Of a stretch of 64,000 bases of DNA, positions 2,874 through 31,537 are shown one piece after another. The notes beneath the pieces are model-generated. The model worked only from the letters and a program-made list of their open reading frames with translations. It did not search any database and had not been told where the DNA came from. Made by a program: the position numbers and the translations under genes. The number at the start of each line of letters is the position of its first letter. The stretch's first letter is position 1. The DNA is from Clostridia bacterium (GTDB taxonomy: Bacteria > Bacillota > Clostridia > Lachnospirales > Anaerotignaceae): positions 1-64,000 of the forward strand of contig JALCQR010000010.1 of the NCBI GenBank assembly GCA_022651385.1, given 5' to 3'.

Positions 2874-3194
2874 TTATTCCTCGTCTTCTTCTTCATCAAA
2901 AAGCTGATTAAAGGTTTCGCTTACTTTCTCAAAAGTATCGTCATCTTCGATAAGCTCAAGACGTACGTCATCGCCTTCTTCATAATATTCATAAATCAAT
3001 ACTGTGTCGTCATCTTTAGGCAAAAGTGCGATGTACTGCTGGCCTTCTACCTCAAAAACACCTATTATGCTGCATTCAAGCTCTGTATCATCATCAAGAG
3101 TAAGAGTCATTGTGTCCATAACCTCTTCGCAGCATTCATCATCTTGGTCATGGTCATGACCGCATCCGCAGGTGCATTTTTCTTCTTCGCTCAT
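2874..3194 (-). CDS. DUF1292 family small acidic protein
   Basis: 106 residues. The N-terminus carries a His/Cys-rich tract (CTCGCGHDHDQDDECCEE) that could bind metal, followed by a DUF1292 beta domain (MTLTLDDDTELECSIIGVF to about LIYEYYEEGDD) and an acidic tail. DUF1292 proteins are widespread in Clostridia and have no established function. A longer frame reaches 3251 but has no ribosome site; GGAAGGAGA directly precedes the ATG at 3194. It sits alone between the helicase gene and the GNAT gene. In many Firmicutes related genes neighbour the alaS/ruvX cluster, but those partners are absent here. Confidence 0.82.
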   Translation of the reverse strand: MSEEEKCTCGCGHDHDQDDECCEEVMDTMTLTLDDDTELECSIIGVFEVEGQQYIALLPKDDDTVLIYEYYEEGDDVRLELIEDDDTFEKVSETFNQLFDEEEDEE

Positions 3195-27976: not shown

Positions 27977-28002
27977 CTGCTTCAATCCTTTCATATAATA
28001 CA

Positions 28003-28043
28003 AAAAGGCCCGATACAAATTTAAAATTTAGTATCGGGCTTTT
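28003..28043 (-). terminator. Terminator after the siroheme-reductase-like frame
   Basis: Minus-strand 12-bp stem AAAAGCCCGATAC / GTATCGGGCCTTTT with T tail. Confidence 0.88.
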
Positions 28044-28057
28044 ATTTTATGTTTTAA

Positions 28058-29062
28058 TCAGCAGGTAGCGCCTCCGACAAGGTGAAGCTGAGCCCCTAAT
28101 ATTTCAGCCTTCCTTTTAAGTATATCATCACTTAAAAGCTGAGATTGCACATTCTCAAATCCAAGCCTCTCAATTGTATCTGCAAAACGCTCGCCTGTCT
28201 TTCCCTGTTCTCTGAAAAGAAGAATAGCTTTTTCAACTGCTAAAAGGGCTTCGGTTTCAGATGCAAATATTTTTTCAAGTGCTTTCCCCTGTTTTACTTT
28301 TTTGCCCCAGCGGCCTCCAATGTATATCTTATATCCCTTTTGTCCGCTTTCAATGGCATTAAAAGTACATTTACCTATACATCTTCCGCAGTTATTGCAT
28401 TTTTCTTTGTCGATTACAAGTTTTCCGTTTTCAACTTTAGCTATATTAATAGGACATGCTTCTTCTACTTTACAGTCTTTGCATCCTCTGCACATATTGG
28501 AATTATATACAGGTATTCGCTGACCAATAATGCCAACATCGTTTAGATTTGGCTTTACGCAGTTATTCGGACACCCGCCAACGGCAATCTTGAATTTATG
28601 CGGAAGTTTAACGTCAGAATAGCCCTTATAGAACATCTCGTGTACTTTCAGCGAAAGCGCAAATGTATCTATAAGCCCATACTGACATGTAGTTCCTTTG
28701 CATGATACCACAGGACGCACTTTTGAACCTGTACCGCCTGTTTCAAGTCCGGCCTTTGAGAGGAAATCCATAATTTCGTCTATCTTTTCATATGGCACGC
28801 CCAGAATCTCAATTGTCTGACGGCTCGTCATTGCAATTTCGCCGCTTCCGAATTTTTCAGCAGCTTCCGCAATACACTTGCTTTCAGAAGCTGTTATTTT
28901 ACCGTTTCTCGTAATTACACGGCAGCTGAAATTATTTGTACCTCTGTTGTTTAAAAAACCAAATGCTTTTACTCTTTTAATATTTTCAGGTAAAACTGTC
29001 GTTTGGCTTTTTTCAGCTGCAACAATGTCAAAGTCTGCGCATTTATTTTCAGGATTATTTAT
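28058..29062 (-). CDS. Siroheme/ferredoxin reductase-like frame without a start codon (NirA/AsrC-type)
   Basis: The frame is open from 29074 to the stop at 28058 but has no ATG, GTG or TTG until codon 28831, which falls inside a conserved motif (EIAMTSRQTIEILG). Translation upstream of it is clearly homologous in style: TVLPENIKRVKAFGF, NNFSCRVITRNGKI, IAEAAEKFGSGEIAM, the nitrite/sulfite reductase ferredoxin-like half domain. The siroheme/4Fe-4S Cys set (SCKGTTCQYG; GGCPNNCVK) and two 4Fe-4S motifs (CRGCKDCKVEEACP; CNNCGRCIGKC) follow. The frame starts in the A11 run that ends the upstream gene, in the -1 frame, so it is probably made as an extension of it or disrupted by a one-base error. 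Confidence 0.72.
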   Translation of the reverse strand: MNNPENKCADFDIVAAEKSQTTVLPENIKRVKAFGFLNNRGTNNFSCRVITRNGKITASESKCIAEAAEKFGSGEIAMTSRQTIEILGVPYEKIDEIMDFLSKAGLETGGTGSKVRPVVSCKGTTCQYGLIDTFALSLKVHEMFYKGYSDVKLPHKFKIAVGGCPNNCVKPNLNDVGIIGQRIPVYNSNMCRGCKDCKVEEACPINIAKVENGKLVIDKEKCNNCGRCIGKCTFNAIESGQKGYKIYIGGRWGKKVKQGKALEKIFASETEALLAVEKAILLFREQGKTGERFADTIERLGFENVQSQLLSDDILKRKAEILGAQLHLVGGATC

Positions 29063-30705
29063 TTTTTTTTTTCGTCAACCACAACATCATTAAAGAATGA
29101 AGCACCTTCAAGAACAACTGTATTCTTGTATCCGAAAGCCTTTAATCTAAGCTGTAGAAGATAAGCAAGTCTTGCTCTCTTGCAGACAAGAAGAATCTTA
29201 TCGTCTTTTTCAAGACCTTCAACAGGGCCGTTTGTCTCGCTTAAAACCACATGCAAAGCACCCTGAATGGTCGGTACATTCTGAGCGTCTACAATCTTGT
29301 ATCCTTTTGCAGCTCCTGCAAGGAATTCAGAAGGTGTCATGCTTACAAGTACGCCGTTTATCTTGTTAAGAATTACATTTACAGCCAAAACAACAGGATG
29401 AATAGCTGTTGAGAAAGGAGGAGCATAAGCAAGGTCAAGGTCTTCCAAATTCTCCAAAGTAGCACCCATAGAAATTGCCGTAGCGCCGATATCAATCATT
29501 TTATCAACTTCTCCGGCACCGACAGCCTGCATTCCAAGAAGCTTATGAGTTTTTCTGTCGGCAGTAAGTTTAATTGAAACAAAAGCCGAACCCGGATAAT
29601 AATGTGCCTTGTCATCGGTAACAGTAAGAGCAGTTACAACATCATAGCCCATTTCTTTTGCGGCTTTTTCGCTAAGTCCTGTCCTTGCGGCATTTACTTC
29701 AGGAAGCTTAACTATAGCTGTTCCCAATACGCCCTTGTAATGCTTGTCTATTCCGCATATAACCTGTGCAAGCACACGTCCTTCCATGTTCGCGGCAGAG
29801 CCCATAGGTGCCCACTGCGGTTTTCCTGTCTGGAAATTTCTTGTTGTAACACAGTCGCCGGCAGCATATACGTCAGGAATGCTTGTTTTCATTTGGTCGT
29901 CAATCTTTAATGTGCCGTTTGGCATCATTTCAATTCCTGTATCTTTGAGGAAAGCCGTGTTTGCCCTTATTCCAAGTGAAAGCACAACAATATCAGCCTC
30001 AAGAAGTCCTTTGTCTGTCTTGACGCCTTCGGCTTTGTCTGTGCCTGCTATTGACTCCATCTTTGTTGAAACAAGAACTTTTATTCCGTTTCTCTTTAAA
30101 ACACGTTCGCAGTATTCGGATATTTCAGGGTCAAAATTTGTAATCACATGGTCTGCAAGGTCAATTACAGTTACATCAAGTCCCTGCTTTTTAAGATTCT
30201 GAGCAACTTCAAGACCAATAAATCCTCCGCCTGCAACAACTGCTTTTTTAGCATTTGTGTTTACCATGTATTCTCTTAAATCAATTGCATCGTCAGGCGT
30301 ACGCATTTTAAATACTCCCGGAAGCTGTACGCCCGGCATTTTCGGTACAATTGAAGATGCACCTGTCGAAATTACACATTTATCATAATCATATACTTCT
30401 TCTGCACCTGTATTGACATTTTTTGCATAAACTTTTTTTGCCTTAGCATCAAGTTTATATGCATCTCTTCCTACAAGCACATCGGCACCTGTAAGCCCTT
30501 TGAATTTTTCCGGTGTATTTACAATAAGGCCGCTTTTGTCTGCAATAACGTTTCCTACATAGTACGGTAAACCGCAGCCTGCATATGATATATCCATGCC
30601 TTTTGTTATTATGAGTACATCTGCGTCACGGTTAATACGTTTAATTTTTGCCGCTGTTTTAGTACCTGCAGCAACTCCACCTATTATTAGTACTTTCACA
30701 TTCAA
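29059..30705 (-). CDS. CoA-disulfide reductase-like flavoprotein with C-terminal rhodanese
   Basis: 548 residues. FAD domain with GGVAAGTKTAAKIKR at the N-terminus, the redox Cys in YAGCGLPYYVGN (about residue 44), NADH-binding VVAGGGFIGLEVAQNLKKQ, FAD loop AAGDCVTTRNFQ, dimerisation domain to about residue 450, then a rhodanese domain with the active Cys in LLVCKRARLAYLLQLR. CoADR-Rhd proteins reduce CoA-disulfide, CoA-persulfide or polysulfide with NADH. The stop lies directly after an 11-A run (29062-29072 on the plus strand as T); see the finding on the downstream frame. Strong GGAGG site. Confidence 0.88.
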   Translation of the reverse strand: MNVKVLIIGGVAAGTKTAAKIKRINRDADVLIITKGMDISYAGCGLPYYVGNVIADKSGLIVNTPEKFKGLTGADVLVGRDAYKLDAKAKKVYAKNVNTGAEEVYDYDKCVISTGASSIVPKMPGVQLPGVFKMRTPDDAIDLREYMVNTNAKKAVVAGGGFIGLEVAQNLKKQGLDVTVIDLADHVITNFDPEISEYCERVLKRNGIKVLVSTKMESIAGTDKAEGVKTDKGLLEADIVVLSLGIRANTAFLKDTGIEMMPNGTLKIDDQMKTSIPDVYAAGDCVTTRNFQTGKPQWAPMGSAANMEGRVLAQVICGIDKHYKGVLGTAIVKLPEVNAARTGLSEKAAKEMGYDVVTALTVTDDKAHYYPGSAFVSIKLTADRKTHKLLGMQAVGAGEVDKMIDIGATAISMGATLENLEDLDLAYAPPFSTAIHPVVLAVNVILNKINGVLVSMTPSEFLAGAAKGYKIVDAQNVPTIQGALHVVLSETNGPVEGLEKDDKILLVCKRARLAYLLQLRLKAFGYKNTVVLEGASFFNDVVVDEKKK

Positions 30706-30880
30706 CGCCTCCTAATGTATTTATACTTTTCAATTTTCATGCTTTTTATGACATTATAACACCAATATTATTATTAATATACTGTTTTTTTGTTATATAA
30801 ACCATAACCATTTTGATATGTATTTCTAAAACATTGCTAAAAACAAAGCATTGTTTTATAATTATTTTGGAGGTGTAGAA

Positions 30881-31537
30881 ATGAAAAACAGTGAAAGAAT
30901 ATTTGCTTTGGCAAACCCAATATGGGAAAAATGCTTTGAGCATCCCTTTGTAAAGGGAATAGCCGACGGCACTTTAAATATAGAAAGATTCAGGTTTTAT
31001 ATGGTACAGGATCATCTTTATCTAATGCAGTATGCAAAGCTTTTTGCTCTCGGGCTTATAAAAAGCCAGAAAGAAAAAGATATACGTCTTTTTGCATCAT
31101 TAATAAGCGACACTCTTGATACCGAAAACGCCGTACATAGAGAATACCTTAAAACTTTAGGTATTACACGTGAAATGATAGACCAGACAAAAACGGCTCT
31201 CGTAACCGAAAGCTACACAAATTATATGCTGTCGGTCGGATTCTCTCAGGGAGTGGCCGAAATATCGGCGGCAGTTCTTGCCTGCTCATGGAGTTATAAA
31301 ATTATAGGAGACTGGTGTCTTGCAAATTCAAAGAACAAAAATAAGTTTTTCTCACCATGGATAGATGAGTACACATCAGAAAGCTATAATCACAGTAATG
31401 ACGTTATAATTGATTTTATTGACAAATTAACCGAAAAATATACGGAAGAACAAATGCTTAATATTGAAAATATAGTCACAAATTGCAGCCGTTATGAACT
31501 GCAGTTTTGGGATATGGCATGGAATATGGAGTATTAA
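30881..31537 (+). CDS. tenA: Aminopyrimidine aminohydrolase / thiaminase II (TenA)
   Basis: 218 residues, TenA length and fold. The nucleophilic Cys is in AAVLACSWSYKIIG (about residue 128), and the catalytic Glu near the C-terminus in RYELQFWDMAW. N-terminal FRFYMVQDHLYLMQYAKLF is the usual first helix pair. TenA salvages hydroxymethylpyrimidine from degraded thiamin. The frame opens ten codons earlier, but GGAGGTG fixes the ATG at 30881. It is far from thiD in this window but fits the same pathway as the TPP-regulated transporter. Confidence 0.92.
   Translation: MKNSERIFALANPIWEKCFEHPFVKGIADGTLNIERFRFYMVQDHLYLMQYAKLFALGLIKSQKEKDIRLFASLISDTLDTENAVHREYLKTLGITREMIDQTKTALVTESYTNYMLSVGFSQGVAEISAAVLACSWSYKIIGDWCLANSKNKNKFFSPWIDEYTSESYNHSNDVIIDFIDKLTEKYTEEQMLNIENIVTNCSRYELQFWDMAWNMEY

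Follow-up and report, generated by a model that had tools for sequence, protein, structure and literature searches.

A CoADR-rhodanese gene that closes on a run of eleven adenines, with an open frame for a siroheme reductase continuing beyond it in the -1 frame, raises the question of whether the locus encodes one protein, two proteins, or one that has been lost. We analyzed this locus in a stretch of 64,000 nucleotides from a Clostridia bacterium (contig JALCQR010000010.1, assembly GCA_022651385.1), referred to here as the window. The best explanation, to which we give a probability of about 0.55, is a single ancestrally fused gene whose frame is broken at the A11 run and from which slippage yields a truncated CoADR-rhodanese protein together with some full-length enzyme. 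The features on which the analysis draws are the following.

30881–31537, plus strand: divergent TenA-like gene, also found next to fused genes of the sister genus (L033, L034, L041)
30708–30713, minus strand: Shine-Dalgarno sequence AGGAGG of the CoADR-rhodanese ORF (direct reading)
29059–30699, minus strand: CoADR-rhodanese ORF, 546 aa, GTG start at 30699 (Pfam and alignment to solved structures)
29062–29072, minus strand: A11 run (T11 on the plus strand), where the frame breaks; candidate site of slippage (direct reading of the letters)
28997–29061, minus strand: linker 3′ of the A-run, read as coding in the fused frame, starting INNPENKCADFDIVAAEKSQTT
28058–29071, minus strand: siroheme/4Fe-4S sulfite-reductase module with an inserted 2x[4Fe-4S] ferredoxin, without a start of its own before 28831 (Pfam, alignment)
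28760–28936, minus strand: NIR_SIR_ferr (Pfam)
28136–28729, minus strand: NIR_SIR (Pfam)
28349–28417, minus strand: Fer4 (Pfam)
28002–28039, minus strand: intrinsic terminator, GCCCGATAC...GTATCGGGC and then a T-run, -17.2 kcal/mol, z = -5.45, directly 3′ of the reductase stop

The junction between the two reading frames

On direct reading, the upstream ORF ends in GAC-GAA-A11-TAA and its peptide in E-K-K-K, with the stop at 29059 on the minus strand, exactly as an earlier note on this DNA had claimed. The rest of that note's description of the junction was equally accurate: the -1 frame runs on the minus strand from 29074 to 28058 for 338 codons without a stop, its first ATG, GTG, or TTG is the ATG at 28831, which lies within the NIR_SIR_ferr domain, and the two ORFs joined in translation give 880 residues counted from the GTG start, where about 880 had been proposed.

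The linker in the window is about 20 residues longer, compared with 13–16 residues in the fused relatives. Over the 65 bases that follow the A-run (21 codons), the fused frame reaches a coding score of +11 bits, while the other frames score -13 and -26. Since the linker scores as coding in the fused frame only, the implication is that translation in this frame once passed through the insert. The terminator stands directly after the reductase stop, and the CoADR-rhodanese and reductase parts therefore appear to share one transcription unit. A promoter scan at the locus gave no signal above chance.

The upstream half is a CoADR-rhodanese protein by homology

Pfam assigned Pyr_redox_2 and Pyr_redox_dim to the upstream half and made no rhodanese call there. 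The rhodanese part nevertheless aligns to solved CoADR-rhodanese proteins, rhodanese Cys included, and both catalytic Cys of the ORF fall opposite Cys43 and Cys531 of Npsr from Shewanella (3nta) in the alignment; the flavin-side active Cys motif (S-x-x-x-C-G-L-P) and the rhodanese Cys are both present in the window protein. Judged by these alignments, the upstream ORF is an NAD(P)H/FAD CoA-persulfide or persulfide reductase with a C-terminal rhodanese domain. Approximately the full 546-residue half aligns, with both Cys, to the CoADR-RHD and NAD(P)H persulfide reductases (Npsr 3nta, CoAPR 8a56, the B. anthracis protein 3icr, and the A. fulgidus protein 6pfz). However, the chains of these four proteins end at the rhodanese domain, whereas the window and its relatives continue into a sulfite reductase.

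The downstream half is an Fsr-like siroheme reductase module

Among solved structures, the downstream module comes closest to F420-dependent sulfite reductase, Fsr, matching the sulfite reductase half of that protein (E 3e-36). Fsr likewise has a ferredoxin inserted in its reductase domain (PMC10229431; PDB 7np8, 7npa). As in Fsr, a flavin oxidoreductase and a siroheme reductase with an inserted 2x[4Fe-4S] ferredoxin form one chain in the fused arrangement, and the reductase part aligns over almost its entire length. The Arg that Fsr has at position 388 is retained, as is the KxK ahead of the second Cys pair. The electron-donor half differs, as it is an NAD(P)H CoADR-rhodanese here and an F420H2 oxidase with an N-terminal ferredoxin in Fsr. 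The siroheme-4Fe-4S motif CX5CXnCX3C is matched in part: its four Cys align, but the spacing of the first pair is CX4C in place of CX5C. This CX4C (CKGTTC, window 28685–28702) is also present in the aligned relatives, which makes it a family-wide departure from the CX5C of Fsr and of assimilatory sulfite reductases. The reductase also resembles AsrC, but with the AsrC profile (TIGR02912) it scored 116.8 bits, far under the curated cut-off of 324.1 bits.

An AlphaFold model of a fused relative (L031; pLDDT 83.9, pTM 0.64) contains two folded halves and a low-confidence linker at 542–545, which supports a flexible inter-domain linker in this relative. The matches listed by Foldseek are confined to the flavoprotein half, so the reductase assignment rests on sequence.

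The window reductase is the sole NIR_SIR protein of its genome. CysG-N and SUMT-type (siroheme-type) genes were found in the same genome, although they could also have a role in cobalamin synthesis. In another locus (L047, 4959–6775), the fused gene is followed by genes reading as glutamyl-tRNA reductase (hemA) and precorrin-2 dehydrogenase (siroheme synthesis), neighbors that lend support to a siroheme role.

The fusion predates the frame break

Single-chain homologues, which the earlier note had anticipated, exist in the window's own clade. There the same protein is encoded as one open frame of about 860–910 codons, all matches listed for the sister genus are single frames of 866–884 codons, and fused frames turn up repeatedly across Clostridia; one genome (G025, contigs C60 and C22) even carries two distinct fused copies, L031 and L034, of 874 and 872 codons. 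By locus type, 47 of 119 loci are fused, 38 are adjacent gene pairs, and 34 are stand-alone reductases, a count that includes L001, which is the window's own copy, as well as some duplicates. Loci of the adjacent type, which form a sister clade, have a stop after the rhodanese domain followed by a Shine-Dalgarno sequence and a MATLTVSAED-like start.

In the tree of reductase domains, the window sits within the fused clade (SH-aLRT 98; 43 rows, namely 41 fused genes, the window, and the frame-broken fused gene L032) and apart from the adjacent clade. At the hinge between the two halves, 59 of 134 loci are open for at least 300 codons upstream, 72 have a start of their own with a Shine-Dalgarno-like motif, and two have another N-terminal domain, which leaves the window as the only locus that lacks both a long upstream frame and a start. 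Its place inside the fused clade, the TenA-like neighbor it shares with the sister genus, and its lack of a start together mean that the gene was already fused in the ancestor and that a one-base change at the A-run has since put the two halves out of frame.

Slippage at the A11 run could yield both products

The genome is strongly depleted in A/T runs of nine or more. In a 384 kb sample, and relative to the expectation of a second-order Markov model, we counted 5 runs of 9 (75 expected), 0 runs of 10 (29 expected), and 1 run of 11 (17 expected). Five runs of at least 10 occur in the whole genome of 2.6 Mb, and the A11 at the window is the longest of them and the sole run of 11. Depletion of long runs has been described as a sign of slippage at transcription or replication (Baranov and colleagues 2005, PMC1088944).

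A direct precedent comes from tssM1 of Citrobacter rodentium, where an A11 ahead of a premature stop gives rise to mRNAs with 10–15 As and restores the frame in ~20–25% of cases (PMC4256274). In both genes, eleven As stand shortly ahead of a stop and an extra A opens the frame for a conserved C-terminal domain, and the truncated and full-length products of tssM1 have their counterpart in the dual products predicted for the window locus. The gene and the phylum are different, however, and tssM1 slippage is documented by Western blot, mass spectrometry, cDNA masses, and a slipping Yersinia tssM, whereas the window case is known from one genome's DNA. Polymerase slippage, one of the routes put forward in the earlier note, is the best-matching rescue of the frame. 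We infer that RNA polymerase slippage at A11 places both products in the cell, and consider it the likeliest means by which the full protein is still made from this genome.

The ancestral chain of ~880 residues joined an NAD(P)H/FAD CoADR, a rhodanese domain, and a siroheme sulfite reductase that resembles Fsr and carries its own ferredoxin, and in this genome the frame is broken in the inter-domain linker by a one-base difference in length at A11. If RNA polymerase slips there, most mRNAs would give the 546-residue CoADR-rhodanese protein, which ends where its separate-gene relatives end, while the full-length enzyme would come from a minority whose run is one A longer or two As shorter. In this enzyme, the rhodanese domain would take sulfane sulfur, for example from thiosulfate with release of sulfite; the flavoprotein would use NAD(P)H to reduce the persulfide (by homology, CoA-persulfide or polysulfide); and electrons would pass through the ferredoxin to the siroheme, where sulfite would be reduced to sulfide.

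In Halanaerobium, separate rhodanese and Asr proteins take thiosulfate to sulfide (PMC5497025). The order of steps proposed here is the same, with the rhodanese and then the sulfite reductase acting in sequence on thiosulfate, but in one chain instead of two separate proteins; because Halanaerobium carries out the conversion with separate proteins, a one-chain thiosulfate reductase is a reasonable proposal. No described enzyme with the CoADR-rhodanese-sulfite reductase architecture was found among the open-access papers listed in literature searches, and the fused enzyme is apparently undescribed. This fusion of an NAD(P)H persulfide reductase with a siroheme sulfite reductase is widespread, as a single chain in dozens of Clostridia, and with neither DsrAB nor the AsrABC complex it could produce sulfide from thiosulfate or sulfite, a point of importance when sulfide producers are counted in gut communities. 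What appears to be a broken gene would then be a putative case of a metabolic enzyme in gut-type Clostridia being rescued by slippage.

A bolder version, in which the A11 is a slippage site maintained at the boundary between domains that sets the ratio of free CoADR-rhodanese to full enzyme and the fused enzyme is a self-contained thiosulfate-to-sulfide reductase, seems to us doubtful. If it were true, both arrangements known from the relatives, a fused gene and a pair of genes, would be recreated by one gene. However, none of the other 133 loci has an A/T run longer than 8 near the junction, and a run of 9 or more combined with a frame break is conserved at 0 of these 133. Slippage at the junction is not conserved among the homologues, a point against the preferred reading as well, and since no relative shares the A-run, a programmed site lacks the argument from conservation.

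Sequencing error and gene decay

The alternative that survives best is that the run was miscounted, or that the culture was mixed or mutated, and that the natural run of 9 or 12 is in frame and gives one fused protein. Sequencing and replication both slip most commonly at long A-runs. The junction is in frame in the fused relatives, and the linker and reductase look fully constrained. The length of the A11 rests on one assembly, the single genome of the genus covered here, and the accuracy of this assembly at 11 As is uncalibrated because this is the genome's only run of that length. In other respects, however, the assembly is clean, with a completeness of 99.88% and, in a heuristic screen of 398 kb, one other candidate frame break. 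With these points on either side, we regard a miscount as a realistic possibility but not a probable one. The other candidate (L129, about 740–1457) lies at an A5 run, and a frameshift-ridden assembly is ruled out by this single weak case.

If the A11 is real, it could also be a recent inactivating indel, with the reductase module heading for loss and any slipped product irrelevant. This would fit with a break that is confined, among 134 loci, to the window and with a genus represented here by one genome. Yet the module is intact and constrained. Further stops, which the earlier note had named as a mark of decay, are absent from the window reductase, and every cluster Cys and the active-site Arg and Lys are retained. 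The ratio of the terminal branch of the reductase to that of the upstream half is 0.50 for the window, in line with its sisters (0.50 for L031, 0.51 for L042, and 0.61 for L041), and the absence of stops and of any rate increase rules out a long-standing pseudogene. Moreover, the break falls at a domain boundary and leaves the CoADR-rhodanese complete, and the known behavior of RNA polymerase predicts some full-length product at A11. We thus consider inactivation unlikely, and slippage from a fused gene remains the preferred reading.

Ribosomal frameshifting and a separate reductase gene

The earlier note had also considered that a -1 ribosomal frameshift at A_AAA_AAA joins the two parts. The heptamer is indeed present, in the correct phase and immediately ahead of the stop, but the downstream fold is no better than chance (z = -0.03) and direct reading of the 20 bases upstream revealed no Shine-Dalgarno-like sequence. 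Without a stimulatory structure, a ribosomal shift is the less likely mechanism, and the length of the homopolymer favors transcriptional slippage, as was argued for tssM1 (PMC4256274). We rate this route as very improbable.

Two separate genes, in which the reductase would begin at ATG 28831 or use a non-standard start codon, are hardly credible and were ruled out: adjacent pairs with a Shine-Dalgarno sequence and an ATG for the reductase do occur in the sister clade, as the earlier note had allowed for relatives, but the window gene lies outside that clade and inside the fused one, it has neither the start codon nor the Shine-Dalgarno sequence that self-starting reductases carry, and a start at 28831 would cut more than half of the NIR_SIR_ferr domain.

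Other irregular loci among the homologues

The frame-broken member of the fused clade, from Negativibacillus massiliensis (L032, near 3176–3191), is a fused-type gene whose break lies in the CoADR part, at about residue 275–280, at a place without a long homopolymer; it is either a mutation or a sequencing error. Early or internal stops were seen in the reductase ORFs of two loci from other genomes (L085 and L011), possibly pseudogenes or errors. Finally, in L009, L038, L049, and L088 the N-terminal 150–200 residues of the reductase ORF are a different fused domain, which from its sequence looks like a C_GCAxxG_C_C-type protein.
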